22,933 bases of DNA from a virus. The stretch is from positions 1 to 22,933 of the IMG/VR virus record IMGVR_UViG_3300033153_014275; one strand, given 5' to 3'. Shown here piece by piece: positions 2,895 to 13,920 of this stretch (its first letter is position 1; the number at the start of each line of letters is the position of its first letter). The notes under the pieces were generated by a model, which did not search any database, had not been told where the DNA came from, and was given only the letters and a program-made list of their open reading frames with translations. Made by a program: the position numbers and the translations under genes.

Positions 2895-3289
2895 TGGCTA
2901 AAGGTAGGGTGGATCAGTTAGAAAAGCAAAAAAGAATATATCAGGTTGGACTGTTATTAAAAAGAAAACCTATTAAATATATAGTTCAATTAAGTTCCGA
3001 AAAATGGGGTGTAACTCCACGTCAAGTCCGTAAATATATTAGGTTAGCTAAGAAAGAATGGGCAAAATATTTTGCTAACCTTAAAAGTAGTGGCCGGGGA
3101 TATCATATTGCCCAGATGAGGGATTTAAAAGATAGTGCTCTAGTTGCCGGTGATTTAAAGTTAGCCTTTGAGATTATTAAAGAGGAAGCTAAATTAATGG
3201 AGGAATACCCGGCCGAAAAAATGGAACCCCTGAGGGTAATATTAGAATCGGAAAAAGAAGGTAAGAAAAAAACTGATGGAAACGGTTAA
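2894..3289 (+). CDS. Putative small terminase subunit
   Basis: A 131-residue basic protein directly before the large terminase, which is the usual place for TerS. The N-terminal half has a helix-turn-helix-like segment, with IKYIVQLSSEKWGVTPRQVR followed by KYIRLAKKEW. This fits a DNA-recognition domain for packaging-site binding. The C-terminal part, DLKLAFEIIKEEAKLMEEYP, is helical and could form the oligomerisation core. The start is coupled to the previous stop (TAATG), and the end overlaps terL by 14 bases. TerS proteins diverge fast, so the call rests on position, size and the HTH pattern rather than a clear family signature. Confidence 0.65.
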   Translation: MAKGRVDQLEKQKRIYQVGLLLKRKPIKYIVQLSSEKWGVTPRQVRKYIRLAKKEWAKYFANLKSSGRGYHIAQMRDLKDSALVAGDLKLAFEIIKEEAKLMEEYPAEKMEPLRVILESEKEGKKKTDGNG

Positions 3290-4496
3290 ACTTCATGAAT
3301 TTCAGGCTAAGGCCTTTTTATCTATGAGGCGGTTCATAGCGTTGATAGCCGGTACCGGTGGAGGTAAAACTTTTTTCGGTCCCATCTGGCTTTTGAGGGA
3401 AGTGCAAAAATACCCTGAAGATTTTTATTTTGTTATTGCTCCCACTTTTCCTTTATTCCAGCGTACTACTCTACCGGAGTTTAGGAAAAGGTTTGATCGG
3501 CATATCGGGGGGATTTATAAGGAGCAGAAAAAAAGGTATGAACTTAAAACCGGTGGAATTGTTTATTTTGGTAGTGCCGATAACCCCGATTCCCTCGAGG
3601 GCGGGCAGGTCCGGGCGGCTTGGGTTGACGAGGCCGGCCAAATTAAACTGGCTTCCTGGCAGGCCACCCAGCGGAGATTGGGAGTAAAAATGGGTAGGTG
3701 TCTATTAACCACCACCCCTTATGGCCTTAACTGGCTATATAAAGAATTTTACCAGCGCTGGAAGAAAGGCGATCCGGATTATGATGTGGTTCAGTTTGAA
3801 TCTATTGAAAACCCTTATTACCCTAAGGCCGAGTTTGAACGGGCGAAAAGGACTCTTGATCCTCGTATTTTTGATATGAGGTACCGGGGTATATTCAGAA
3901 AAATGTCCGGCCTTATCTATCCTGATTTTAATCAGAAAAATATCATAGATCCCTTTGATATTCCTAAAGACTGGCCGGTATTCGGGGGCATCGACTTTGG
4001 CTGGAATAATCCTTTTGTGGCCTTAAAGATGGCTATAGATAAAGATGATATTGTTTATATATTTGATGAATATTACCGGGCTGGGGCCTACCTCGAGGAA
4101 CATGCTAAGCATTTAGATGGTAGTATCACCTATTATGCTGATCCTAGCGCTAAGCAGGATATCGAGGAATTAAACCATATACATATTAAAGTTAAAAATC
4201 CTAGTAAATCTGGAAGCGGGGAAGAAACCTTTCATGCTAGCTTTTTATATGATGTTAGGCCTGCTGATAATGCTGTGGATAAAGGTATCGAATTGGTGGG
4301 TAGTCTAATTAGGACTAATAGGTTAAAGGTTTTTAAAACCTGTAAGAATTTTCTCGATGAGGTGGAAACCTATCATCGGGATGAAAAAGATCGAATAGTT
4401 AAAAAAGATGATCACTGTATGGATGCGGGAAGATACGGTATAACTACCTTTTTAAAGGAAAGGGGGAGAGAGAAAAGCTATGTCTACGTCGGATAA
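3276..4496 (+). CDS. terL: Terminase large subunit (ATPase and nuclease)
   Basis: The motor that translocates and cuts phage DNA at the portal. The 406-residue protein has Walker A AGTGGGKT (25-32), Walker B AAWVDEA (114-120) and the coupling motif TTTPYG (145-150). The C-terminal RNase H-like nuclease shows acidic residues in GGIDFG (237-242), YYADP (286-290) and KKDDHCMDAGRYG (376-388), as expected for two-metal catalysis. At just over 400 residues it is full length for the compact terminase type. It overlaps the small subunit by 14 bases and the portal gene by 17 bases. All catalytic motifs appear intact. Confidence 0.95.
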   Translation: METVKLHEFQAKAFLSMRRFIALIAGTGGGKTFFGPIWLLREVQKYPEDFYFVIAPTFPLFQRTTLPEFRKRFDRHIGGIYKEQKKRYELKTGGIVYFGSADNPDSLEGGQVRAAWVDEAGQIKLASWQATQRRLGVKMGRCLLTTTPYGLNWLYKEFYQRWKKGDPDYDVVQFESIENPYYPKAEFERAKRTLDPRIFDMRYRGIFRKMSGLIYPDFNQKNIIDPFDIPKDWPVFGGIDFGWNNPFVALKMAIDKDDIVYIFDEYYRAGAYLEEHAKHLDGSITYYADPSAKQDIEELNHIHIKVKNPSKSGSGEETFHASFLYDVRPADNAVDKGIELVGSLIRTNRLKVFKTCKNFLDEVETYHRDEKDRIVKKDDHCMDAGRYGITTFLKERGREKSYVYVG

Positions 4497-5940
4497 TAAA
4501 AAAGAAATTAAAAAAGAACAATCTTATGTTTTTGTAGGTAAAGGCGGTAAAGAAGGTAGTAGCACCTTTACATTATTGAATAAGCTTGCTAAAGGGAAAT
4601 CACCTTTTAAAAAAGCTTCTAAGCAGGTTAAAAAAGAGGTTTACGGAGTCGGTGGTCTTGTATCCTATCCTTATGCCCCGGCTAATTTTTTGACTTTGTA
4701 TGAAGCCAATCCGGTGTTTGCTGCTTGTGTAAAACAGATCGCTAAGGATGTGGCTGGGCTGGGCTATAAACTGGTGTTAAAAGAGGGTGAAAAAGAGAAC
4801 GAAAATGAAAGGAATAAAATTCAGGCATTTCTGGATCGGCCTAACCCCGATGATTCTTTAAGGACTATTCTTAATAAGCTATTAATCGACTGGGGAGTTA
4901 TAGGTTGGTGGGGCTTGGAAGTAGTTAAAAATCTTAAGGGTGAAATAGAGGAAGTTTATCATATCCCGGCACATACTTTTAAAATACATAAGGATAAAAA
5001 GAAATTCTATCAAGAACGAGGTCTTAGAAAAGCTTGGTTTAAGGCCTTCGGGGTGGAAGAAAATTATTCGGGTAAAACCGGAGAGAAAGGCGATTATGAC
5101 CTTAAAACCCGGGCAAATGAACTCATCTATTATAAAAATTATTACCCTCGCTCTGATTTTTATGGCGCTCCTAATATACTATCTGCTCTGGGTTCTGTTA
5201 TAGCCTTAACCGAAATTCGAGATTATAATTTGTCCTTCTTTGAGAATTATGGGGTCCCGGCCTGGATGATCGTTTTAAAAGGTAACTGGGCTGATGATTC
5301 AGTAAAAACCATTCGTAACTTCTTGGATAATGAGATTAAGGGAACTAAAAATGCTAAGAAAACTATGGTCTTTAAGGTTGAAGAAGGCGATTCTATGGAC
5401 TCTGAAAAGCTTTCTGAAGGCATACAGGAGGCCAGTTTTAAGGCCTATATACGGCTACTGATTGACGATATCCTGATGGCCTATTCTATGCCTGGTTATC
5501 GTATCGGTCTTAATATTGTCGGTAGGCTGGGGGGAACTAATATCCGAGAGTCCACTGAGATCTATAAAAATGGGGTGGTTGAACCTTTACAGGAAGATAT
5601 CGAGGATATGGTAAATTATAAGATTATTGAGCAAGGCCTTCACTGTAATTCCTATAAATTTAAACTTAATGATCTGGATATTAGGGATATAGATGCTGAG
5701 GCTAAAAGGTATGTTAGTTTGGTTAATATAGGGGCTATGACTCCTAATCAGGTCAGGAATTTACTTGATCTGGGTGAACCTTATCCTGAGGGCGATAAAT
5801 TTTATATCGCTTCCGGGCTAGTCGAGGCTGGAGGAGAACCGATTGAAAAAAGGCAGGATAAGTTTATAGGGGTAGTGGAAGAACTTAAAAAGGATGTTGA
5901 AAAATTAATCGGTGATGAAGAAAAAGAATCGATTACTTGA
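4480..5940 (+). CDS. Portal protein, PBSX-like type
   Basis: This forms the dodecameric ring at the capsid vertex through which DNA enters and leaves. The 486-residue protein follows terL and has the usual portal pattern: a variable basic N-terminus, a core starting around FLTLYEANPVFAACVKQIAK with AGLGYKLVL, then VIGWWGLEVVKN, the IPAHTF segment, YYPRSDFYGAPNIL, and VPAWMIVLKG. It ends in a charged coiled-coil-like tail (VEELKKDVEKLIGDEEKES). ATG 4480 lies downstream of AGGGGGAGAG inside terL. The N-terminus KEQSYVFVG echoes the terL C-terminus EKSYVYVG, a curious local similarity. Length and order fit the PBSX/SPP1-like portal group. Confidence 0.88.
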   Translation: MSTSDNKKEIKKEQSYVFVGKGGKEGSSTFTLLNKLAKGKSPFKKASKQVKKEVYGVGGLVSYPYAPANFLTLYEANPVFAACVKQIAKDVAGLGYKLVLKEGEKENENERNKIQAFLDRPNPDDSLRTILNKLLIDWGVIGWWGLEVVKNLKGEIEEVYHIPAHTFKIHKDKKKFYQERGLRKAWFKAFGVEENYSGKTGEKGDYDLKTRANELIYYKNYYPRSDFYGAPNILSALGSVIALTEIRDYNLSFFENYGVPAWMIVLKGNWADDSVKTIRNFLDNEIKGTKNAKKTMVFKVEEGDSMDSEKLSEGIQEASFKAYIRLLIDDILMAYSMPGYRIGLNIVGRLGGTNIRESTEIYKNGVVEPLQEDIEDMVNYKIIEQGLHCNSYKFKLNDLDIRDIDAEAKRYVSLVNIGAMTPNQVRNLLDLGEPYPEGDKFYIASGLVEAGGEPIEKRQDKFIGVVEELKKDVEKLIGDEEKESIT

Positions 5941-6295
5941 TTGTAAAGATTGTAAAAGAACCTGTTGCGATGATCAGAATATATATTTAAAAAAAGGTGC
6001 TAAGGGTCCCATTCCCACGAAACTTAAAGTAGGAAGTTGGCTACTGGTTAAAGGAGTAATTTGGGTTAAAAAGAAGAACGGCCTTTGGAAATGTATTGCC
6101 TTTGATACTAAAAAAAGGATGTGCAAAATCTGGAGATATAGGCCGGCTCTATGCCGGTATTATTTCTGTCAATTCGCTAAAAAAAAGAGGCGAAAAAAAA
6201 TAACTAATTTTGAAGATTATAAGGAATTGGATAAGACTGGTAAATATAGATTAATTTTTAAAGATAACCTCGAGGGCTTAAAAAAGGGAAAATAA
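5915..6295 (+). CDS. YkgJ-like cysteine-cluster protein
   Basis: A 126-residue protein with eight cysteines in two groups: CKDCKRTCC (Cys10, 13, 17, 18), then Cys60, Cys70, Cys80 and Cys85 in WKCIAFDTKKRMCKIW and RPALCRYYFC. The order C-x2-C-x3-CC ... C ... C-x-IW-x-RPxxCR-x3-C matches the YkgJ/UPF0153 zinc or iron-sulfur cluster family, whose role is poorly known. The C-terminus is very basic. I use ATG 5915; a GTG one codon earlier is possible. The start lies inside the portal gene without a strong ribosome site, suggesting coupling. A metal-cluster protein between portal and minor-head genes is not part of a minimal head module. Confidence 0.7.
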   Translation: MKKKNRLLDCKDCKRTCCDDQNIYLKKGAKGPIPTKLKVGSWLLVKGVIWVKKKNGLWKCIAFDTKKRMCKIWRYRPALCRYYFCQFAKKKRRKKITNFEDYKELDKTGKYRLIFKDNLEGLKKGK

Positions 6296-6298
6296 TTA

Positions 6299-7855
6299 AT
6301 GGTAGACAAAGATAAACTTATTAAATTTGATAAGATGTTGGATGATTTTCTTAAAAAGATTGGCCGGAGAGAAAGAATAGCCAATAAATATGATAAGCTT
6401 TTTAAGGAAAATTATGCTTACTTTAGGCCTAAGGTAAATAGTTGGCTAAAGCAGACTAATAAACAGATTATTAAAGATCTTAATAAAAAATTTATTAAAA
6501 AGAAGGCTACCGCTACCCAGTTAGTAGCTAACCTGACTGATTGGGAAGAAATAGAGGATAACGGTAGAAAGATATTTAAACCGGCAGTAATTAATATTAT
6601 AGCTAAATCTGGGGATAAAGCTTTAGAGATAGCTGGGGTCGAGGCCTCTTTCGATGTTTTAAGAGTCGAAAGTGTGGCTATTACCGAGAAAATCTGCTCC
6701 AAACTGGTCCGGGAGGTCACTGATGAAACTAAGAAGGCCATCTCTAATATTATTAAAGTGGGGATTAAAGAAGGTAAAAGTATGGGGCAGGTAGCTAAAG
6801 AGATCAGGCCTCTGGTGGGTTTAACTACTAAGCAAACTATGGCGGTAGTTCATTATAATGAGTGGTTAATCGAGAATAGGCCGGAGCGGTCCCTTAAAGA
6901 GATTAATCAAAGTGTTGAGGCCTATGCGAGAAGGATGCACCGTAGAAGGGCGGATACTATCGCTCGAACTGAAACTGCTAGGGCTCAGTGTGAGGGTTCT
7001 CTATTGGGTTACGGACAGGGTGATATTCGGGAAGTAGATCGGGTAGAGATATTAGATAAGAAAACTTGTGCCGAGTGTGAGGCTGCCGATGGTAGAACCT
7101 ATACTCTTAAAGAGGCTGAGGGCGTTTTGCCTGCTCACCCTGATTGCCGGGGATGCTGGGCTCCGGTGGTGGGTAAAGTTAAACCTAAACCTAAAAAGCC
7201 GGCGGTTGAGATCCCGGGTTTTGTACCTGCTAAGACTATGGCGGAAGCTGAAAAATATGCTGAAAGAGATTTAATTAAATCTGGTGGGCATATATCCGGC
7301 GCTAACTTTGGTAAGATGAGCCTAGATAATGCCAATATGGTTAATAATCGATTAACTGATTTAATAAATGATTATAAAATTAAACCTAATTTCATCGGTA
7401 GCTCTCAGGCTATAAGAAGGGCGGTCAAAAGAACATATCCGTGGCTAAAATTTAAACGGGCTGGTGGCCGGATGTTTGCCGAAACTATGCATCTACCAAA
7501 TAATGAAATAGCTATAGCTTTTAATGAGAAATATTTTTCAAAGAGAGGTACTTCTTTATTAAAACGAGAATTAGAAAATTGTTTTGCGAGTGGCTGGCAT
7601 AAATTAAAAAATGTAGAACATATAGTCGACCATGAATATGGCCATGCTTTAGATATAGCTAAAAAGTTATCCTTAAAATCTGAATTTGTAGGACATTATA
7701 CTTTCTTAAAGGATAGGTCCCTGGTAAAAATGGCGATAAGTGGATATGCCGATGCTGACGGGTTAAGAGAAAGCTGGGCCGAGATATTCGCTCTTTATAG
7801 GGCGGATAAATTGCCACCCTTGAGAAAAAAATTAGTTGAGGAGTTGTTAAAATGA
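6299..7855 (+). CDS. MuF/SPP1 gp7-type minor head protein with C-terminal HExxH domain
   Basis: Residues about 1-290 fit the phage head-morphogenesis family: helical N-terminus, ADTIARTETARAQCEG (218-233), then CAEC (257-260), ADGRTY and HPDCRGC (280-286), the typical Cys/His cluster. These proteins sit on the inner head side near the portal. A proline/lysine linker, KVKPKPKKPAVEIPGF, leads to a second domain of about 200 residues. It contains HIVDHEYGHALD (HExxH at 445-449) and, about 40 residues on, ESWAEIFALY (491-500). That layout is the zinc-binding site of gluzincin-like metallopeptidases. MuF proteins often carry toxin or effector C-termini, so this could be an ejected protease or a maturation factor. 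The linker and a slightly more AT-rich 3' end suggest domain acquisition. The peptidase assignment rests on the motif only. Confidence 0.82.
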   Translation: MVDKDKLIKFDKMLDDFLKKIGRRERIANKYDKLFKENYAYFRPKVNSWLKQTNKQIIKDLNKKFIKKKATATQLVANLTDWEEIEDNGRKIFKPAVINIIAKSGDKALEIAGVEASFDVLRVESVAITEKICSKLVREVTDETKKAISNIIKVGIKEGKSMGQVAKEIRPLVGLTTKQTMAVVHYNEWLIENRPERSLKEINQSVEAYARRMHRRRADTIARTETARAQCEGSLLGYGQGDIREVDRVEILDKKTCAECEAADGRTYTLKEAEGVLPAHPDCRGCWAPVVGKVKPKPKKPAVEIPGFVPAKTMAEAEKYAERDLIKSGGHISGANFGKMSLDNANMVNNRLTDLINDYKIKPNFIGSSQAIRRAVKRTYPWLKFKRAGGRMFAETMHLPNNEIAIAFNEKYFSKRGTSLLKRELENCFASGWHKLKNVEHIVDHEYGHALDIAKKLSLKSEFVGHYTFLKDRSLVKMAISGYADADGLRESWAEIFALYRADKLPPLRKKLVEELLK

Positions 7856-8031
7856 ACGTTATAGTTTGCGCAAAATGTATTCACTTTATTAAATCCGAAA
7901 AGAAATTTAATAAGTGTAAAGCGTTCCCCGAACCACCCGGGATTCCCTGGGAGATTGTATCTGGGGAAAATGATCATAGTAAAAAGATAAAAGGCCAAAC
8001 GGGTGACTATGTATTTAAAGAGAAAAAATGA
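7852..8031 (+). CDS. Small Cys-containing phage protein, 59 aa
   Basis: Starts in the ATGA overlap with the previous stop. The product has CAKC (Cys6-Ala-Lys-Cys9), Cys22 in NKCKAFP, then GIPWEIVSGENDHSKK and a C-terminal GDYVF. This pattern, C-x2-C, CxAFP, GIP-x-EI and then H and GD, is one I associate with a small protein often found next to head-morphogenesis genes in Firmicutes-type phages, probably metal-binding. Its function is unknown. It is 17 bases before the large fusion gene and clearly coupled to the MuF gene. Confidence 0.75.
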   Translation: MNVIVCAKCIHFIKSEKKFNKCKAFPEPPGIPWEIVSGENDHSKKIKGQTGDYVFKEKK

Positions 8032-8048
8032 AAAGCTGGTGATGCTTT

Positions 8049-11000
8049 ATGAAAATTGAAGAAATAAATATTAAAAATTTATCTAAAGCTCCAAATAAGG
8101 AATTGTATAGCCTTCATTTAAGATTTATTCAGTTATGGAATAAAAATTTTGCCGGTAACCGAAAAATTGAAGTGGGTAGCCTGGAGCGAATTAGTTTTTT
8201 AGATAAATATAAACTGCTCATAAGGGAAATGGATAAACGGAAACTTACCCATAGCACCCAGAATATCGATCTGGCTCTATTTAAAAAAAGTATTTATAAT
8301 TTGGATGCCTCTACTCTAGGCGATATGGTAATCATAGCTGATTATATCTCTATCGGAGGTAGCTTTGTAAAATCCCCAAAAGAAGCAAATGATCTGGATT
8401 TAATTGTAAGAGATGATAAGAGTAATCGAGATGAGGGAATGGAATTAAAACTATCCCGATTAATGCAGAAGCAGATTAAGAAGGATTGCCATTTTGTCTA
8501 CAATAAGACTGGAGCTCATTCGACCTATATTCCCTTATTCGATTTAGTTATTAGGGGTAAAAATGAGATTAAGAGAGTTGAGGTAAAAGAAGATTATGGT
8601 AAGTCGAGCGATATAGAATTATTAAAAAGTATAGAGGAATATTATGAGGGACTGGATAAATGGAAGCAGGATTTTATTTATGATTTTGCCGAAATGGCTA
8701 AAAATTTGGAAGGTAAAACTATATTGGATCTAGGTTGCGGTACTGGCCGGGTAATGCATGCTTTGATAAACTCTGATTATTATAATTACCAAGTAGAGGG
8801 AGTAGATAATAATGATATAGCCCTGGCTATGTGTAAAAAGAAAGGTCTGACTGTTAAAAAAGTTGACCTGGAAAAAGGTAAGCTACCTTACGAGGATAAT
8901 CAATTTTGTAATGTTATTGGCCTTCATATACTGGAGCACTTAAAGAATCCCAGTAAAATTGTTAAGGAAGCTATCCGGGTGGCCGAAAAAAAAGTTATAT
9001 TTATTAGCCCCCTGGGTAAGAGGCTCGATCCTTCACACAAACATACATTTATTAAGATAGAAGATTTTAAGACACTATTCGATAAAAATGCCGAAGTTAA
9101 AATGGTAGATCATGGAGATAATACTGCTATAGCAATTATTAAGGTGGCCAAAATTAAAAAAGCCGATAACCTTAAACCTTTCGGAACTTTTATCCCACCT
9201 AAACCCACTATGGCCAATATTACCGAGGCCTTTACCTATTCCCAGATCGAGGATTGGGCCAAAGATAGGTTTCCCTTAGACGTGGAGGAAAAGCTTAATT
9301 CGTTCAGATGTATAGCGGAAAAGCTGGGGGATAAGTTAAGGCTGAAAACCGAGGGCGATAAGGATAGGACTAAGCAATTACCGGAATTAGTAGAGATTTT
9401 AGAAAAGGTTCCTAATGATTTTATACTTGATTTTGGGCTGGGAATTGAGCGAGATGGTAAGGCTTTACCCCGGATTAAGCTGATGACCTTAATGAGCGAT
9501 AAACCGGTATTGGGGGAAAAGGATATTTTAAAAGCTACTATATTCGATTTGCCTTACTGGAAAGAAGATTTACACAATAAACCACTAAAAGAAAGAAGAA
9601 ATTTATTAGAGAAGTTTTACAATAAGTATTTAAAGGGTGATCCCCATTTTGCTTTAACTAACTTTATAATCGTTAAAAATAGTAAAGAGTTGGAAGCCCA
9701 GTTTAAAAAATTATCTAAGCTGCCTCAAAGCGAAGGTATAATGATTAAGGACTTAAATAGTATCTGGGATACTGACGGGCGTATTACGGGCTGGGCTAAG
9801 ATAAAGATAGAGGCCGAGATAAAGGTAATAGCTGTTAAGAAAATGCCTAATAAGGCCGGCGGTTATAACTATTATTGTGGGTTGCTGCCTGGGGATAGCA
9901 AGTTTACTAACCTGATAGAGTTTCAGGGGAAAAAGTACATTGATTTGGGTAAGACCTTTAATACTAAATTGAACGCTAATGTCGGAGATATACTGACCGT
10001 GGGGGTTGAGGAGATTATTCCTTCTGATGATAAACTACAATGGCTAGGTCCCCGGGTGATCGATATTGATAAGGATAGAAAAGAACCCTATTTTGCCAAT
10101 CAGGTAATCGGTATAGCTGAGCGGGCTAATATATTACAGAAATCACAGCATAAACGTACCGAATGTATGATGTGTAGTAAATCACCTGAATATGAGGTAC
10201 TCTGGGCGGAAGGCATGGCTCACGCTTGGTTCTGTAAAAAGCATTTTAAGGAATGGCTAAGCTCAGATTGTAAAGAACATAGCGGAGGATTTTCTGATGT
10301 TGATTACGTAAAGGAAATTAAAGATGGTGTGGCTTCTAAAAAGTTTGGTGATAATCCGAATCCTAATATAATAGAAAAGTTAAAAGAGGAATTTGGTAAA
10401 GCGGAAGAAGGCAATATCGATTATAAGGTCGGGGATACCGGTAAGGGGGTCCTGCAGCTCCATATCATGGGGATAGAAGAAGAAAAGATCGAGACATTAA
10501 AGAAGGTATCTGCAGAAGCGGTAAGGTCAAGATACAATCCTACTAAATTAAAGATGTTATTAAAAGGTGCTATTAGCGAGCAGGGGGCTCATATTGATCT
10601 TAGGATGGTTCGGAAAGGCGATAAGTATTTCGAGGGTGGAGAGATAATGATAGGGAATCTTACCGGCCTTGATAAACTAAAGAAATTAGAAACTGGGGGT
10701 AAGTTAAGGTTTGGCTGGAAGGTCCCTCGAAAGGAAGAACCTGAAGCCGAGACCATTAGAGGTCCTGTTTCCTGGATGAAAGTTGGTAAGAATAAAATCG
10801 AAATATTCCCACCCGGAGAGGTGGGGGCTACTACTAATAAATATGGGGCTATGCTGATATTAGATGATTTTGACTTCGAGGCTATCGAACCTCAGGACGA
10901 TCACGCTAAAAAATTTAAGTTTACCGGTAATAAATTAATACCGGAAGGAATCTACCTTATGGCATTCGTACCGGTAACAGCAGCTGGGGAAAAGGGACCT

Positions 11001-11426
11001 CGAGTCTGGATGGTAAGTAAATTAAAAGAAGTGGAAAAAAGATTTAGGTTTAAATTCTTAAAAGTAAGTAAACCGGAATATATTGTTGGAGGGATTGTTT
11101 ATCCGGCTGATGAAGTAGACAGTCAGGGGCAGAAAGCAAACTCTAAGGAAATTTGGGAAGCTTTGAAGAAATTTATGATTAAGTATTTCCAGAATACCAG
11201 AAAGATAAATATAATGCATAAAGGATTTTCCCGTAATATACCTATTGTAGAAATTTTTCAATGTGAAGAGAATACTCATAAGGGTGGATTGGATAAAGAC
11301 CATCTGATTAAAAAGGGCGATTGGTATATGTCTATATATTTGGGTTATGAGAAAGAAATCTGGAAAGACGTTATATCCGGTAAGTTAACCGGTTTTTCTA
11401 TGGAGGGCAGAGCTAATATTACCTAA
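8049..11426 (+). CDS. Multi-enzyme fusion ending in an XkdF-type prohead protease, 1125 aa
   Basis: One uninterrupted frame with six recognisable parts. (1) Residues ~92-180: nucleotidyltransferase fold, with GGSF (103-106), NDLDL (114-118) and a possible third acid in PLFDLVI (Asp165). (2) ~215-365: class I SAM methyltransferase, with LDLGCGTG (226-233), GVDNND and ILEHL. (3) ~395-675: ATP-dependent DNA-ligase-like core, with KLNSFR (415-420) where KxDGxR is expected, ILDFG (459-463) in place of motif III, IFDLPY, EGIMIK (562-567) and GWAKIK (581-586). (4) ~702-735: CMMC ... CKKH, a possible zinc site. (5) ~798-995: LigD phosphoesterase-like, with HIDLRM (848-853), GWKVPR and an IFPPGEVGATTNKYG turn. 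(6) ~1005-1125: Peptidase_S78_2/XkdF, with VGGIVYPADEVDSQG, His1057 and TGFSMEG (Ser1117). XkdF-type proteases process the procapsid and are normally a few hundred residues at most. The order before scaffold and capsid supports the protease call. The role of the enzyme arm is unknown. Confidence 0.85.
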   Translation: MKIEEINIKNLSKAPNKELYSLHLRFIQLWNKNFAGNRKIEVGSLERISFLDKYKLLIREMDKRKLTHSTQNIDLALFKKSIYNLDASTLGDMVIIADYISIGGSFVKSPKEANDLDLIVRDDKSNRDEGMELKLSRLMQKQIKKDCHFVYNKTGAHSTYIPLFDLVIRGKNEIKRVEVKEDYGKSSDIELLKSIEEYYEGLDKWKQDFIYDFAEMAKNLEGKTILDLGCGTGRVMHALINSDYYNYQVEGVDNNDIALAMCKKKGLTVKKVDLEKGKLPYEDNQFCNVIGLHILEHLKNPSKIVKEAIRVAEKKVIFISPLGKRLDPSHKHTFIKIEDFKTLFDKNAEVKMVDHGDNTAIAIIKVAKIKKADNLKPFGTFIPPKPTMANITEAFTYSQIEDWAKDRFPLDVEEKLNSFRCIAEKLGDKLRLKTEGDKDRTKQLPELVEILEKVPNDFILDFGLGIERDGKALPRIKLMTLMSDKPVLGEKDILKATIFDLPYWKEDLHNKPLKERRNLLEKFYNKYLKGDPHFALTNFIIVKNSKELEAQFKKLSKLPQSEGIMIKDLNSIWDTDGRITGWAKIKIEAEIKVIAVKKMPNKAGGYNYYCGLLPGDSKFTNLIEFQGKKYIDLGKTFNTKLNANVGDILTVGVEEIIPSDDKLQWLGPRVIDIDKDRKEPYFANQVIGIAERANILQKSQHKRTECMMCSKSPEYEVLWAEGMAHAWFCKKHFKEWLSSDCKEHSGGFSDVDYVKEIKDGVASKKFGDNPNPNIIEKLKEEFGKAEEGNIDYKVGDTGKGVLQLHIMGIEEEKIETLKKVSAEAVRSRYNPTKLKMLLKGAISEQGAHIDLRMVRKGDKYFEGGEIMIGNLTGLDKLKKLETGGKLRFGWKVPRKEEPEAETIRGPVSWMKVGKNKIEIFPPGEVGATTNKYGAMLILDDFDFEAIEPQDDHAKKFKFTGNKLIPEGIYLMAFVPVTAAGEKGPRVWMVSKLKEVEKRFRFKFLKVSKPEYIVGGIVYPADEVDSQGQKANSKEIWEALKKFMIKYFQNTRKINIMHKGFSRNIPIVEIFQCEENTHKGGLDKDHLIKKGDWYMSIYLGYEKEIWKDVISGKLTGFSMEGRANIT

Positions 11427-11433
11427 TATTACC
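11414..11433 (+). repeat. Tandem 10-base repeat at the stop codon
   Basis: TAATATTACC occurs twice back to back, and the second copy begins with the TAA that ends the fusion gene; a partial third copy (TAA) follows. The last residues NIT are encoded by the first copy. Deleting one copy would keep the stop. It looks like a replication-slippage duplication. Confidence 0.6.
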
Positions 11434-11445
11434 TAACTGTTTAAT

Positions 11446-11474
11446 TTGACAATAATTAATTTTTTTGCTATAAT
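11446..11474 (+). promoter_or_regulatory. Consensus sigma-70/sigma-A promoter before scaffold and capsid
   Basis: TTGACA (11446-11451) and TATAAT (11469-11474) both match consensus at all six positions with the ideal 17-base spacer, which is rich in A and T. The predicted transcript start is near 11481. No other promoter this good was noticed in the window. It sits exactly where extra scaffold and capsid mRNA would be needed. Confidence 0.88.
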
Positions 11475-11480
11475 CTAAAA

Positions 11481-11607
11481 AATTAAATATAGCAACGCAA
11501 GTTTGAAGTTAGATCCTTAATGGGATGCTAAGCTAATCAAGATTGCAAAATCTTGTGGTTTGGTATCCCATTTTTTTTGTTTATAGATACCAAACCGAAG
11601 AAGGAAG
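11481..11607 (+). ncRNA. Structured leader RNA with competing hairpins, or a short terminated RNA
   Basis: From the predicted start to the scaffold start there are about 127 untranslated bases with nested structure. CAAGATT (11538-11544) pairs with AATCTTG (11549-11555) across a GCAA tetraloop, inside AATGGGAT (11519-11526) paired with ATCCCATT (11565-11572), followed by a T run. A second hairpin pairs GGTTTGGTATC (11557-11567) with GATACCAAACC (11586-11596), a perfect 11-base match. It shares 11565-11567 with the terminator stem, so the two cannot fully coexist. The second stem ends just before the GAAGAAGGAAGG ribosome site. This fits an attenuator or riboregulator, or a roughly 95-base RNA plus readthrough. 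No known riboswitch class is recognised. Confidence 0.6.
11519..11578 (+). terminator. Intrinsic terminator inside the capsid-operon leader
   Basis: An 8-base-pair stem (11519-11526 with 11565-11572) encloses a 7-base-pair GCAA-capped hairpin and is followed by eight T (11571-11578). Directly after a consensus promoter this should stop much of the transcription unless the competing downstream hairpin forms first. It could equally end readthrough from the upstream operon. Confidence 0.65.
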
Positions 11608-12573
11608 GTGGCTAAAATTAAAACGCAAGAATTACAAAATATTGATGTGGAAAAAATTGCTTTGGTTGACCTCCCGGCTATCCGAAGAAAATTCTTGATC
11701 GAGAAGCAAGATAAAAAAATAAATATCTCGATAGAAAGCGATACTACTATTAAGGGTACAAAAATTATTGTGAATGGAGAGGAGATTAAAAACTTACAGG
11801 ACTTCCATTTTTCCTTTTATAAACCCCGGGGAGGGGAAGCTTCTAGTATGAGCCCGGTTTCCTGCTCTTATTCAAAGATTACCGAAACCGAAGACGGTTT
11901 CAAACATAGTGATACTTTCTTTCTATCAAAATCCGAGATGGAGGTGAATAAGATGGATATGAATAAGGAATTAAAAAAATTATTAGATTCCTACTTTGAT
12001 GAGGAAGTTAGCTTCGATCCCGAGGAATTCGAGTTTGAGAAGGCTAAGCTTTCTGATAAAGCTTTAAACGCTCTAAAGGGGGCGTTAAATTTGGTTAATA
12101 AGTATAAAGCGGATTTTCCGGATGATCTCAAAAAAGCGGTCGGAGTGTTGGCTAAATATGCTTCTTATGGTTATGGCTACCCGGCTAAAAAAAGTGATGA
12201 TGACAAGAATAAAGATATAAATAAGTCCGGGAGAACGCTTTCCAAGGATACGGTTACAAAAATCAAAAGTGTAATTAAAGCTCTTAATGAACTTTTGCCC
12301 GAGGAAGACAGAGAAAAACTTAAAAAATCTGTCGTTGATGATGACGGAAAAGATGCCGATAAGGAGTTTAAAGAAGCTCTGGATGAGGTAACCGGTATCG
12401 CTAAAAAGTTGGAAAAGAGATTGAGCGAGAAAGATGAGACTATCGAAAAATTGAATAAAAGGCTTGAGACTGTAGAAAAAGAAAAGGGGATTAAAAAATC
12501 TATTGATGGCCAGGATGACGATGATGATGGCAGCGATAAATCCAAAAAGAAATGGGGTTCTTTTAATCTCTAA
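11608..12573 (+). CDS. Probable scaffolding protein (XkdF-associated), 321 aa
   Basis: Located between protease and major capsid genes, the scaffold position. The N-terminus has IEKIALVD-type sequence: VEKIALVDLPAIRRKFLIEK (15-34 region), a segment I know from proteins following or forming the tail of XkdF proteases. Residues 35-110 look beta-rich. From about 116 on the protein is highly charged and helical, with a coiled coil around 251-293 (EFKEALDEVTGIAKKLEKRL) and an acidic then basic end (GQDDDDDGSDKSKKK). Such composition is typical of scaffolds that fill the procapsid and are later cleaved. The start is GTG 11608; an ATT at 11617, 5 bases after AGGTGG, is an unusual alternative. A strong internal start exists at 11953. 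Confidence 0.72.
   Translation: MAKIKTQELQNIDVEKIALVDLPAIRRKFLIEKQDKKINISIESDTTIKGTKIIVNGEEIKNLQDFHFSFYKPRGGEASSMSPVSCSYSKITETEDGFKHSDTFFLSKSEMEVNKMDMNKELKKLLDSYFDEEVSFDPEEFEFEKAKLSDKALNALKGALNLVNKYKADFPDDLKKAVGVLAKYASYGYGYPAKKSDDDKNKDINKSGRTLSKDTVTKIKSVIKALNELLPEEDREKLKKSVVDDDGKDADKEFKEALDEVTGIAKKLEKRLSEKDETIEKLNKRLETVEKEKGIKKSIDGQDDDDDGSDKSKKKWGSFNL
11953..12573 (+). CDS. Nested in-frame short form of the scaffold, 206 aa
   Basis: Inside the scaffold gene, GGAGGTG (11940-11946) stands 6 bases before an in-frame ATG at 11953. That is a better ribosome site than the one for the full-length start. The product would begin MDMNKELKKLLDSYF and contain only the charged, coiled-coil part, lacking the N-terminal beta-rich domain. 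In phage lambda the scaffold Nu3 is likewise an in-frame internal product of the protease gene C. Both long and short forms are probably made. This is inference from the start signals, without expression data. Confidence 0.55.
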   Translation: MDMNKELKKLLDSYFDEEVSFDPEEFEFEKAKLSDKALNALKGALNLVNKYKADFPDDLKKAVGVLAKYASYGYGYPAKKSDDDKNKDINKSGRTLSKDTVTKIKSVIKALNELLPEEDREKLKKSVVDDDGKDADKEFKEALDEVTGIAKKLEKRLSEKDETIEKLNKRLETVEKEKGIKKSIDGQDDDDDGSDKSKKKWGSFNL

Positions 12574-12630: not shown

Positions 12631-13920
12631 ATGTTTACTAACAAAGAACTATTAAATAAGAAAAACTTTCAAAAGGCTTTGATTATGATGCCTACTATCG
12701 ATCTGGCCCCTGAGGAAGCCGATAGGTTTCGGGATTATGTTTTCGATCAGTCGGTCTTAAAAAATAATGCCCGGCAGGTAAAGATGAATAAAGCTACTGT
12801 TAATATTCGTGCTGTCGGGTTGGGTAGTGAGAAGTTTTTGCACCCTGGTGCTACCTTCTCCTCATCTGATTATAAGACCAGACTTACCCATAACCTTATT
12901 CAACTAACCGCTAAGGAGGTTAGAGGTTGTGTAGTAATTCCCGATGATGATATTCAAGATAATATCGAAGGTGATGCTTTTATAGACCATATTATGAAAA
13001 TGGTTACTAAGCAGATTGCTAATGAACTGGATGAGGCCTATTGGATAGGCGATACCCATGGTTTAAGTGGTTTTGCTAACACCGATATAAGAAGTCTTTT
13101 TGATGGCTGGAGATATAGGATTCTTCATAGTGGTCCCGGCGAGGATTACGAGAACGACGTTTCCGGTTCGGCCACTATATTAGATGCTGCTCCTGGGGCT
13201 ACTGCAGCTATTACTGGTGTATCACAAGCTGATCCTTGTGTAATTACGGCTACGGCACATGGTTTTTCTACCGGGGATCAGATAAAGATTACTAATGTAG
13301 AGGGAATGACCGAACTTAATGGCAAGCTGTATAAAATTACTAAACTTACTGCCGATACCTTCTCATTAGACGGTATAGATTCGACTGGATATACTGCATA
13401 CACTTCAGGGGGAGTTTGCATTAAACAAGACTTCTTACTTACTGGTAAGATTGTTGAACAGAATTCTTCGGCTCCTTATAATTGGGAATTTAAGTTCGGT
13501 AAAGCCAGAAGAGTCTTACCGGCTAAATATAAAAAGGAAGGTCTGGAAAGCCTTAGATATTTTACTAACGACCAGGTAGCGCAAGACTATATCGATGCTT
13601 TATCTGCTCGTGCCACTAATATAGGCGATTTAGCGCTTACTGGCGGAGCTCCTCTAAAATCGGGGGTAATACCGATTGTACCATGTCCTTTAATGGCCAA
13701 TGATCTGGATGCTGATGGAAAACTAGGCGAGGGTAGTTATACTGATTGTATGCTGACCCATAAGGATAACCTGATTGTGGGTATCTATAAGGAGATCCAG
13801 ATGGAGACCGAAAGACAAGCTGCCGATAGAGCTACTTACTTCTTCTATACTTTAAGGGCAGATCTGGCGGTTGAGAATGTAAATGCTATAGTGCTTATCA
13901 AGAATTTACTTACTGGTTAA
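12631..13920 (+). CDS. Major capsid protein with an inserted beta domain
   Basis: GAGGTG lies 8 bases before ATG. The 429-residue protein follows the scaffold, as a capsid protein should. The core matches the HK97-fold XkdG-like style: an N-terminal arm, VNIRAVGLGSEKFLHPG (57-73), LTAKEVRGCVVIPDDDIQDN (92-111), a spine helix IDHIMKMVTKQIANELDEAY (118-137), and C-terminal VIPIVPCPLM, GIYKEIQMETER and FFYTLRADLAVEN. Residues ~191-263 form an insertion (TAAITGVSQADPCVITATAH, GFSTGDQIKITNVEGM, TELNGKLY, STGYTAYTSGG). I recognise it as an FCCH-like beta domain common in phage fibre proteins. It would probably project from the shell surface. No N-terminal propeptide cut site can be picked by eye. 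Confidence 0.87.
   Translation: MFTNKELLNKKNFQKALIMMPTIDLAPEEADRFRDYVFDQSVLKNNARQVKMNKATVNIRAVGLGSEKFLHPGATFSSSDYKTRLTHNLIQLTAKEVRGCVVIPDDDIQDNIEGDAFIDHIMKMVTKQIANELDEAYWIGDTHGLSGFANTDIRSLFDGWRYRILHSGPGEDYENDVSGSATILDAAPGATAAITGVSQADPCVITATAHGFSTGDQIKITNVEGMTELNGKLYKITKLTADTFSLDGIDSTGYTAYTSGGVCIKQDFLLTGKIVEQNSSAPYNWEFKFGKARRVLPAKYKKEGLESLRYFTNDQVAQDYIDALSARATNIGDLALTGGAPLKSGVIPIVPCPLMANDLDADGKLGEGSYTDCMLTHKDNLIVGIYKEIQMETERQAADRATYFFYTLRADLAVENVNAIVLIKNLLTG

Follow-up and report, generated by a model that had tools for sequence, protein, structure and literature searches.

Candidate DNA repair enzymes fused to an XkdF-type head maturation protease recur in uncultured viruses

The window analysed here is a 22,933-nucleotide stretch of viral DNA (IMG/VR record IMGVR_UViG_3300033153_014275, positions 1 to 22,933), and among its head genes it encodes a protein of 1125 amino acids in which a series of enzymatic domains precedes an XkdF-type head maturation protease. 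The domains, their fusion in a single frame, the recurrence of the architecture, its fixed place in the head cluster and the DNA-specific partners in the relatives were established directly. Our preferred reading, which we hold with slightly better than even confidence, is that the protein is a DNA repair and protection cassette that is made with the head protease, loaded into the procapsid, freed and active on the incoming genome. Many uncultured viruses share this architecture, and no description of repair cargo fused to XkdF was found in the open-licence papers searched.

Domain organization of the fusion protein

The fusion and its parts are located as follows.

8049..11426, + strand: candidate repair-cassette/maturation-protease fusion, 1125 aa; single ATG-started frame without internal stop
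8049..8303, + strand: N-terminal helical segment, residues 1-85; helices in the AlphaFold model, also in relatives
8322..8573, + strand: Pol-beta-superfamily nucleotidyltransferase, residues 92-175; GG 103-104, DLD 115-117, third Asp 165
8640..9101, + strand: class I SAM methyltransferase, MetW/UbiE-like, residues 198-351; PF07021/PF08241, DLGCGTG 227-233
9243..9818, + strand: ATP-dependent DNA ligase catalytic domain, residues 399-590; PF01068, table of motifs in 49 domains
9819..10091, + strand: ligase C-terminal segment, residues 591-681, from the alignment of the relatives' ligases; probable OB fold by position
10143..10379, + strand: Cys/His segment, residues 699-777, CMMC...CKKH; possibly zinc-binding
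10440..11027, + strand: LigD-type 3'-phosphoesterase, residues 798-993; Q803, H805, H848-x-D850-x-R852, PGEVGAT 922-928
11052..11417, + strand: XkdF (Peptidase_S78_2) head maturation protease, residues 1002-1123; PF14550, His1057, Ser1117

The modules follow the order Pol-beta-type nucleotidyltransferase, class I methyltransferase, ATP-dependent DNA ligase, Cys/His segment, LigD-type 3'-phosphoesterase and XkdF. An earlier note, made from the letters alone, had proposed nucleotidyltransferase, methyltransferase, ligase, LigD phosphoesterase and XkdF modules, and Pfam, the family profiles and structure bear out all five. The Pfam matches to DNA_ligase_A_M, MetW/Methyltransf_11 and Peptidase_S78_2 all exceed the curated cut-offs, whereas the nucleotidyltransferase segment of the window protein alone has no curated-level match and was recognized via its relatives. 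The profiles behind the domain map were seeded with family members, which makes the E-values of these members circular and leaves Pfam, PDB and structure comparison as independent tests. The earlier note did not notice the degradation of ligase motifs I and III, nor the Cys/His segment, the profile of which also matches L002, L003, L005, L007, L008-L010 and L024-L026 among the related contigs. The N-terminal helices are modelled with pLDDT values that are mostly 75-94 over residues 1-80, and this segment is found again in L008, L011 and L013. A chance open frame is ruled out, as the protein is matched by profiles along its length. An assembly join of separate genes, which the earlier note had raised as a possibility, is also ruled out because independent contigs repeat both the domain order and the gene order, at ligase-core identities of 61-89%.

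The nucleotidyltransferase contains the hG[GS]...DxD...D motif of the Pol-beta superfamily, and in the sub-family profile the G and DxD are invariant and the third Asp nearly so. Sister members match DNA_pol_B_palm (best 1.7e-6) and NTP_transf_2 (9e-4). Motifs and sister matches thus agree with the proposal that a different nucleotidyltransferase takes the place of the polymerase part of LigD. The core of the domain was modelled with low confidence, and the fold-search matches landed on the N-terminal helices instead. Its target could be a protein rather than DNA. The methyltransferase was matched by MetW/Methyltransf_11 at residues 220-318 (E 1e-13) and by none of the DNA methyltransferase families in Pfam.

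The ligase domain matches DNA_ligase_A_M (PF01068) at residues 408-586 (E 4e-14, 53.2 bits against a cut-off of 26.2), and the matches are to DNA ligase families, not to RNA ligase families. Motif I, KxDG, reads K415-L-N-S in the window, where the Asp-Gly is gone, and the Glu of motif III is replaced (LDFG, 460-463); within its clade, 10 frames have Gly or Ser at this position. Motifs IIIa (FD), IV (SEG) and V (KxK) are retained. Among the 49 aligned domains, motif I could be read in 44, and its Lys is invariant in all of these while the Asp-Gly is retained in 27. Judged by these motifs, the active site of the window ligase is degraded in motifs I and III, yet the domain is strongly conserved, and motif I is intact in most of the relatives, L016 and L020 among them. 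The altered adenylylation motifs make ligation by the window protein doubtful. They also weaken, for this protein with its KLNS and replaced motif III Glu, the earlier proposal of a ligase that seals genome ends, and they leave it uncertain that the protein can carry out a complete repair cycle.

The phosphoesterase is placed in the LigD family by three lines of evidence. LigD_N is matched by 6 of 18 members of the family (best 1.2e-8), the family profile matches PDB 3p43 (2.5e-4), and the predicted structure (pLDDT 85.7) aligns with six LigD phosphoesterase structures at Z-scores of 9.1-13.1, as compared to 3.9 for the best unrelated fold. The Z-scores are 13.1, 12.9 and 11.1 against 3p43, 3p4h and 3n9b, respectively, with rmsd values of 2.1-3.1 over 117-127 aligned residues. 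These structural matches were found with VIA-align but not with Foldseek alone, and a search of a viral fold library gave no useful match. In the LigD phosphoesterase of P. aeruginosa, the Mn ligands are His42, His48 and Asp50, together with Arg52 (PMC8656161), and these align with H805, H848, D850 and R852 in the window. The assignment of H805 as the equivalent of His42 is probable from its position and the common Q-x-H. The alignment shows no clear window equivalents of His84 and Tyr88 in LigD, and there is a conserved Trp909 in that region. A LigD-type phosphoesterase is thereby placed outside LigD, in a viral setting.

Head-gene neighbourhood and recurrence in related viruses

The protease domain at the C-terminal end matches Peptidase_S78_2 (PF14550) with an E-value of 3e-13 (50.2 bits against a cut-off of 24). 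The His and Ser motifs reported in the earlier note are in place, and His1057 and Ser1117 are kept in nearly all of the 43 aligned XkdF domains. The fusion gene is surrounded by the following head genes.

3276..4496, + strand: terminase large subunit; NCBIfam phage_term_2, 9e-15
4480..5940, + strand: portal protein; NCBIfam portal_PBSX, 2e-31
6299..7855, + strand: MuF-type minor head protein; PF04233, 5e-08, and phageSPP1_gp7
11608..12573, + strand: separate scaffold-like protein; matches the post-protease part of the head maturation protease family phrog_3017
12631..13920, + strand: major capsid protein; phrog_1623, 4e-55, "virion structural protein", with homologues annotated as major capsid protein

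The scaffold-like gene adjoins the fusion in the relatives too. A ligase or phosphoesterase cassette was found in 56 contigs, and in at least 51 of these it lies within a head-gene cluster. The evidence comes from our own profiles in 41 contigs, from the position beside the portal gene in ANMV-1, and from Phage_portal matches in eight contigs and a MuF match in one; in ANMV-1 and the contigs with the Phage_portal and MuF matches, the head-gene matches are located upstream of, and near, the cassette. In one additional contig, the head-gene neighbour was matched weakly. The transferase, ligase and phosphoesterase are joined in 40 frames (34 at 90% identity), of which 26 terminate in XkdF (22 distinct at 90% identity) and four in a second, probable protease domain. 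The fusion is thus widespread, which the earlier note had not seen when it called for a search in other phages. A scan of the genome collection gave two short MAG contigs only, and among the annotated phages no record spans 80% or more of the fusions used as queries. That dozens of viruses have the cassette next to their head genes suggests, short of proof, that the particle takes it up and brings it into the cell along with the genome.

The relatives display two domain orders, with the ligase before or after the phosphoesterase, and two protease types accompany one enzyme cargo. No recognized protease is fused to the ligase/phosphoesterase frame in L002, L024-L026, ANMV-1, L017 and L038, and fusion to the protease is therefore not obligatory. 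Between the window and L008, the XkdF domains are 40% identical as compared to 86-89% for the ligase and phosphoesterase, and we take the protease to have been exchanged under a retained cargo because of this difference. The ligase domains of the two are 88-89% identical with a low dN, a comparison that rests on dN and identities since dS is near saturation. ANMV-1 and L040, the record of which carries a TBP gene, point to archaeal hosts.

Several relatives contain additional enzymes that act on DNA: a uracil-DNA glycosylase (PF03167, 2e-15) in L020 and L022, a pyrimidine-dimer glycosylase (PF03013, 3e-7) in L018, and D12 (Dam-type) DNA adenine methyltransferases in L002, L007, L012 and L043. 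The glycosylases and Dam-type methyltransferases indicate a role in DNA repair and protection, and the presence of glycosylases makes the repair of lesions and nicks at least as likely as the sealing of ends. These partners, and the match of the ligase to DNA rather than RNA ligase families, also speak against the protein being a polyvalent effector, in which host proteins or nucleic acids would be targets for modification by the nucleotidyltransferase and methyltransferase, and the ligase/phosphoesterase would repair or alter host tRNA or DNA during take-over. We regard such an effector as improbable, although Pol-beta nucleotidyltransferases of polyvalent proteins have been proposed to nucleotidylate proteins (main text of PMC5512222), the window methyltransferase matches no DNA methyltransferase family and the ligase motif is altered.

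Known systems and the proposed role

The ligase and 3'-phosphoesterase in one chain echo bacterial LigD (POL-PE-LIG, non-homologous end joining), as the earlier note had it, and the phosphoesterase fold, the Mn-binding His/His/Asp and the Arg are common to both. However, LigD has an AEP primase-type polymerase where the window has a Pol-beta-type domain, and the window protein is fused to a head protease and belongs to a clade with an altered ligase active site. By its domain content, the window protein is not LigD as a whole: neither Pfam nor the 25 best NCBIfam matches of the protein show a primase-type polymerase. A search for Ku in 19 related records, not all of which need be complete, found none. 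TIGR02776 matches the ligase part only, far under its cut-off. A Ku-independent, LigD-like machine delivered to circularise the linear genome after entry would account for the pairing of the phosphoesterase with the ligase, and two mycobacteriophages, Omega and Corndog, make Ku and rely on LigD of the host when they infect (Pitcher 2006, cited in PMC7719229). Against it, glycosylases would be superfluous for joining, the window ligase motifs are altered and the 19 records, possibly fragments, show no Ku. We regard this explanation as improbable.

The principle is already published: Iyer et al. (2017, PMC5512222) described, in phages and in conjugative elements, polyvalent proteins that unite several enzymes and may end in an assembly protease. 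According to the main text of that paper, such proteins contain 2-15 enzymatic domains per polypeptide, which include DNA adenine methylases and Pol-beta nucleotidyltransferases, many are located among the virion genes of portal-terminase phages, and some contain an assemblin-like assembly protease that is always C-terminal. The window fusion likewise has several enzymatic domains in one chain and is encoded among virion genes. The hub of the published proteins is a zincin peptidase, and searches of the main text turned up neither a fused DNA ligase nor a phosphoesterase of the LigD type, a DNA glycosylase or XkdF. The paper also reports a paucity in archaea, whereas archaeal hosts are indicated here for ANMV-1 and L040. 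The "ATP-dependent DNA ligase" of ANMV-1 (KP703175, 3200-5800) shares the order nucleotidyltransferase-ligase-phosphoesterase and lies directly behind the portal gene, but no recognized protease is fused to it; it is annotated as a ligase only, and the main text of the ANMV-1 paper does not mention the ligase. African swine fever virus packages base-excision-repair enzymes, namely DNA polymerase X, ligase and AP endonuclease (PMC12172490). It shares a Pol-beta-family enzyme and a ligase with the cassette, but its enzymes are not fused to one another and it is a eukaryotic virus with no relation to those studied here, so that the analogy is functional only.

In the proposed model, the enzymes would be built into the procapsid via the XkdF domain and freed by XkdF cleavage during maturation, and would then travel in the head and act on the virus genome on its entry into the next cell. 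Their tasks would be the repair of nicks, lesions and 3' ends, plus methylation: the glycosylase would excise damaged bases, the phosphoesterase heal 3' ends, the Pol-beta-type domain fill gaps, the ligase seal and the methyltransferases protect. We infer the incorporation, cleavage, injection and division of labour; the gene neighbourhood fits the cargo model, which by analogy has a precedent in kind in the polyvalent proteins with a C-terminal assembly protease (main text of PMC5512222). Alternatively, the enzymes may work earlier, in the cell that makes the particles, during packaging or ahead of it. There they would mend nicks, gaps and lesions so that no damaged DNA enters the head, or finish the ends, and would later be degraded or expelled rather than injected. 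The same domains and gene position fit this equally, and sequence cannot separate the two timings. We nevertheless consider it fairly unlikely, since the D12 and MetW-like methyltransferases would be more useful on incoming than on outgoing DNA, and since the polyvalent precedents DarB and DdrB of P1 are virion proteins (main text of PMC5512222).

That tailed viruses of bacteria and archaea carry a particle-borne repair machine, with the protease as both loading tag and release enzyme and the genome repaired on entry, is a tentative reading that we rate at somewhat below even. If true, particle-borne glycosylase, 3'-end healing, gap filling, ligation and methylation would need no wait for gene expression. 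DNA repair would then join the known tasks of polyvalent proteins, and their range would widen towards the viruses of archaea. The maturation protease would prove to be a carrier that can be exchanged while its cargo stays, and ligase-phosphoesterase-glycosylase fusions would become available in a compact, natural form. The question of whether a tailed virus imports DNA repair of its own is seldom asked, and the recurrent architecture makes it directly testable.

The XkdF domain of the window shares its catalytic domain, its His and Ser motifs and its place before the scaffold and capsid genes with the PBSX-like XkdF/Peptidase_S78_2 proteins. Those in the isolates examined are short or have further sequence behind the protease in the same chain (150-349 aa), whereas the window has a scaffold gene of its own and places some 1000 residues of enzymes ahead of the protease. 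The idea that methyltransferase-XkdF fusions are already common in isolates was rejected, as the "DNA methyltransferase" labels sit on XkdF-only proteins in Rhizobium TM16 (210 aa), Lactococcus 56701 (349 aa) and Pseudomonas Boevelstad (150 aa). The label looks like a propagated error, and the protein checked against Pfam was the one from Lactococcus.

Domains and active sites of the fusion protein

The gene of interest forms a single frame with an ATG start and zero internal stops, and relatives share its N-terminal sequence.
8049-11426 (+), fusion protein of 1125 amino acids
Class I methyltransferase, ATP-dependent DNA ligase and XkdF protease domains were each matched above the curated Pfam cut-off. 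The multi-domain fusion proposed in the earlier note is confirmed. The top ligase match in NCBIfam is a LigD model, with coverage limited to the ligase part.

The segment at residues 798-993 did not match LigD_N as a single sequence. Six of 18 relatives matched LigD_N (best 1.2e-8), a PDB sequence search with the family profile hit 3p43, a LigD phosphoesterase from an archaeon (2.5e-4), and the AlphaFold model (mean pLDDT 85.7) aligned to six LigD phosphoesterase entries with Z 9.1-13.1, the next fold having Z 3.9. The suggestion of a LigD-type phosphoesterase is thus borne out. The catalytic residues Q803-x-H805 and H848-x-D850-x-R852 align with Gln40, His42, His48, Asp50 and Arg52 of Pseudomonas LigD, whose catalytic roles have been described (PMC8656161); clear counterparts of LigD His84 and Tyr88 were not found in the alignment. 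Residues 92-175 gave a poor fold model. Their reading as a nucleotidyltransferase is supported by the G[GS]...DxD...D motif, which almost all of the 48 copies aligned retain, and by sister members that matched DNA_pol_B_palm and NTP_transf_2.

The catalytic His and Ser of the XkdF protease are H1057 and S1117. The motif I lysine of the ligase is invariant in all 44 readable domains, 27 of which contain an intact K-x-D-G; the window has KLNS in place of the consensus KxDG. The motif III glutamate is replaced by Gly or Ser in ten window-clade frames, and the window ligase retains motifs IIIa, IV and V. It shares 88-89% identity with its homolog in the related contig L008 (dN ~0.06); the capsid proteins of the two are 79% identical and the portals 74%. 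Judged from these comparisons, the window-clade ligase is under strong constraint despite its altered motifs and would therefore be retained for some role, perhaps as an altered adenylyltransferase or in DNA binding.

Recurrence of the fusion with DNA-specific partners

Relatives were gathered from IMG/VR with small alignments as queries, which returned a broad set. Local profiles mapped a ligase and/or phosphoesterase cassette on 56 contigs, including the window, the annotated virus ANMV-1 (KP703175) and two MAG fragments. Transferase, ligase and phosphoesterase are joined in 40 frames (34 at 90% clustering), of which 26 (22 clustered) end in XkdF, four (three) in a second domain and ten (ten) in neither. 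The second domain is probably also a protease, because it resembles the N-terminal part of a gene (10854-12041) in IMGVR_UViG_3300021591_000018 (L040) that matches the head maturation protease family phrog_976. The modules are ordered NT-LIG-PE-XkdF or NT-PE-LIG-XkdF, or are split over two adjacent genes, as in L002, where MBL-ligase-phosphoesterase is followed by D12-NT-Cys/His-XkdF.

Modules added to the cassette in related contigs
Uracil-DNA glycosylase: L020, L022
Pyrimidine-dimer glycosylase: L018
D12 DNA adenine methyltransferase, one to three copies: L002, L007, L012, L043
Metallo-beta-lactamase-like domain (match below cut-off): L002 group

DNA is preferred over RNA as the substrate, mainly because it is what the glycosylases and the D12 enzymes work on. 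Residues 264-392 of the L020 protein (6726-10640) show 45% identity to parts of Roseobacter phage head-gene regions and 52% to a Pseudomonas phage PaBG protein labelled "putative DNA-binding protein", and also resemble a fragment of the prohead protease of HGTV-1.

The ligase and phosphoesterase of the window share 86-89% identity with those of L008, whereas the XkdF domains share 40%, and the XkdF closest to that of the window (61%, L024) is located behind a different module set. Cargo identity can therefore persist while the protease is exchanged. In two close pairs, L035 (1872-5296) with L036 (5868-9293) and L033 (6720-10384) with L041 (119-3841), the protease (or phosphoesterase-protease) part is a separate overlapping frame in one member and fused in the other. 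The separate frames may be genuine or may stem from frameshift errors in sequencing. XkdF proteases of 150-349 amino acids are labelled "DNA methyltransferase" in phrog_1530 and in the isolates KX456209, MN988459 and PQ464592, apparently a propagated label error.

Head gene neighbourhood, promoter and hosts

The gene order in the window is terminase, portal, MuF protein, fusion, scaffold and capsid protein.
1154-2443, fusion of ParB_N with an N6/N4 DNA methylase, lying upstream of the terminase genes
5912-6295, small CxxCxxCC-type metal-chelating-like protein between portal and MuF (PF03692 just below cut-off)
6299-7855, MuF protein with HEYGH and then ESWAEIFALYR at its C-terminal end, resembling zincin metallopeptidases; motif shared with L002 4040-5605 (54% identity)
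11446-11607, gap between the fusion and scaffold genes

Our own profiles identified portal, MuF or terminase upstream, or scaffold or capsid downstream, in 41 of the 56 contigs, and the ANMV-1 cassette gene comes after its portal. Beyond these, Phage_portal was matched upstream in eight contigs and MuF in one, and one further contig had a weak portal match. In the remaining contigs, either the sequence is a short fragment (L063, L064) or the cassette adjoins a gene of the second protease-like type (L040, L044).

The promoter in the 11446-11607 gap is perfect (TTGACA-17-TATAAT, with TG) and is the sole 12/12 match in 16 kb; 3' of it lies a strong hairpin ending in a U-tract (dG -33.5, z -4.6). 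A downstream stretch pairs with the 3' arm of the hairpin (GGTTTGGTATC/GATACCAAACC), resembling an attenuator. The element did not match Rfam; a comparable promoter, leader and terminator are located at the same position in L002, L008, L010 and L012, and loosely in L005 and L007. This arrangement suggests regulated expression of the capsid genes.

For the window clade, the perfect sigma-70 promoter adjoining the fusion gene makes a bacterial host the more likely one. Archaeal hosts are suggested for some other members, because the sediment that yielded ANMV-1 contained methane-oxidising archaea and the L040 record encodes a TATA-box-binding protein with two TBP repeats (28958-29461) on the same contig as the cassette. 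The window portal is nearest to Methanobacterium virus portals (~31% identity).

Possible roles of the fusion in the virion

Maturation proteases are incorporated into procapsids and are active there, and in LigD the healing of 3' ends by the phosphoesterase allows ligase to seal them. The fusion may enter the procapsid via its protease domain and then be cleaved, the enzymes being retained in the head; injected with the genome, they would repair and methylate the incoming DNA. The earlier interpretation of the fusion is partly supported, and the central claim is testable. The enzymes could alternatively serve DNA quality control prior to or during packaging, be effectors directed at the host, or circularise the genome by end joining. 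No Ku was found in the 19 longer records, which are possibly incomplete, and 17 of these contain a single recognisable ligase at the search threshold; L034 has a second ligase, and L059 has none by Pfam, its ligase being visible only with the local profile.

Polyvalent proteins, multi-enzyme single chains of phages and conjugative elements, were described by Iyer et al. (PMC5512222). According to the text of that paper, assemblin-like peptidases are invariably C-terminal in them and were proposed to process them at assembly; the principle of the fusion is therefore already published. A DNA ligase fusion, LigD phosphoesterase, DNA glycosylase and XkdF were not found in its main text, nor was a description of the present fusion found in the open-licence papers searched. 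Zincin-type peptidases are frequent in polyvalent proteins. Within the phage collection, ANMV-1 was the only annotated virus found with the transferase-ligase-phosphoesterase cassette, and its protein is annotated merely as "ATP-dependent DNA ligase". A functional analogy is offered by African swine fever virus, whose particles contain packaged enzymes of base-excision repair (PMC12172490).
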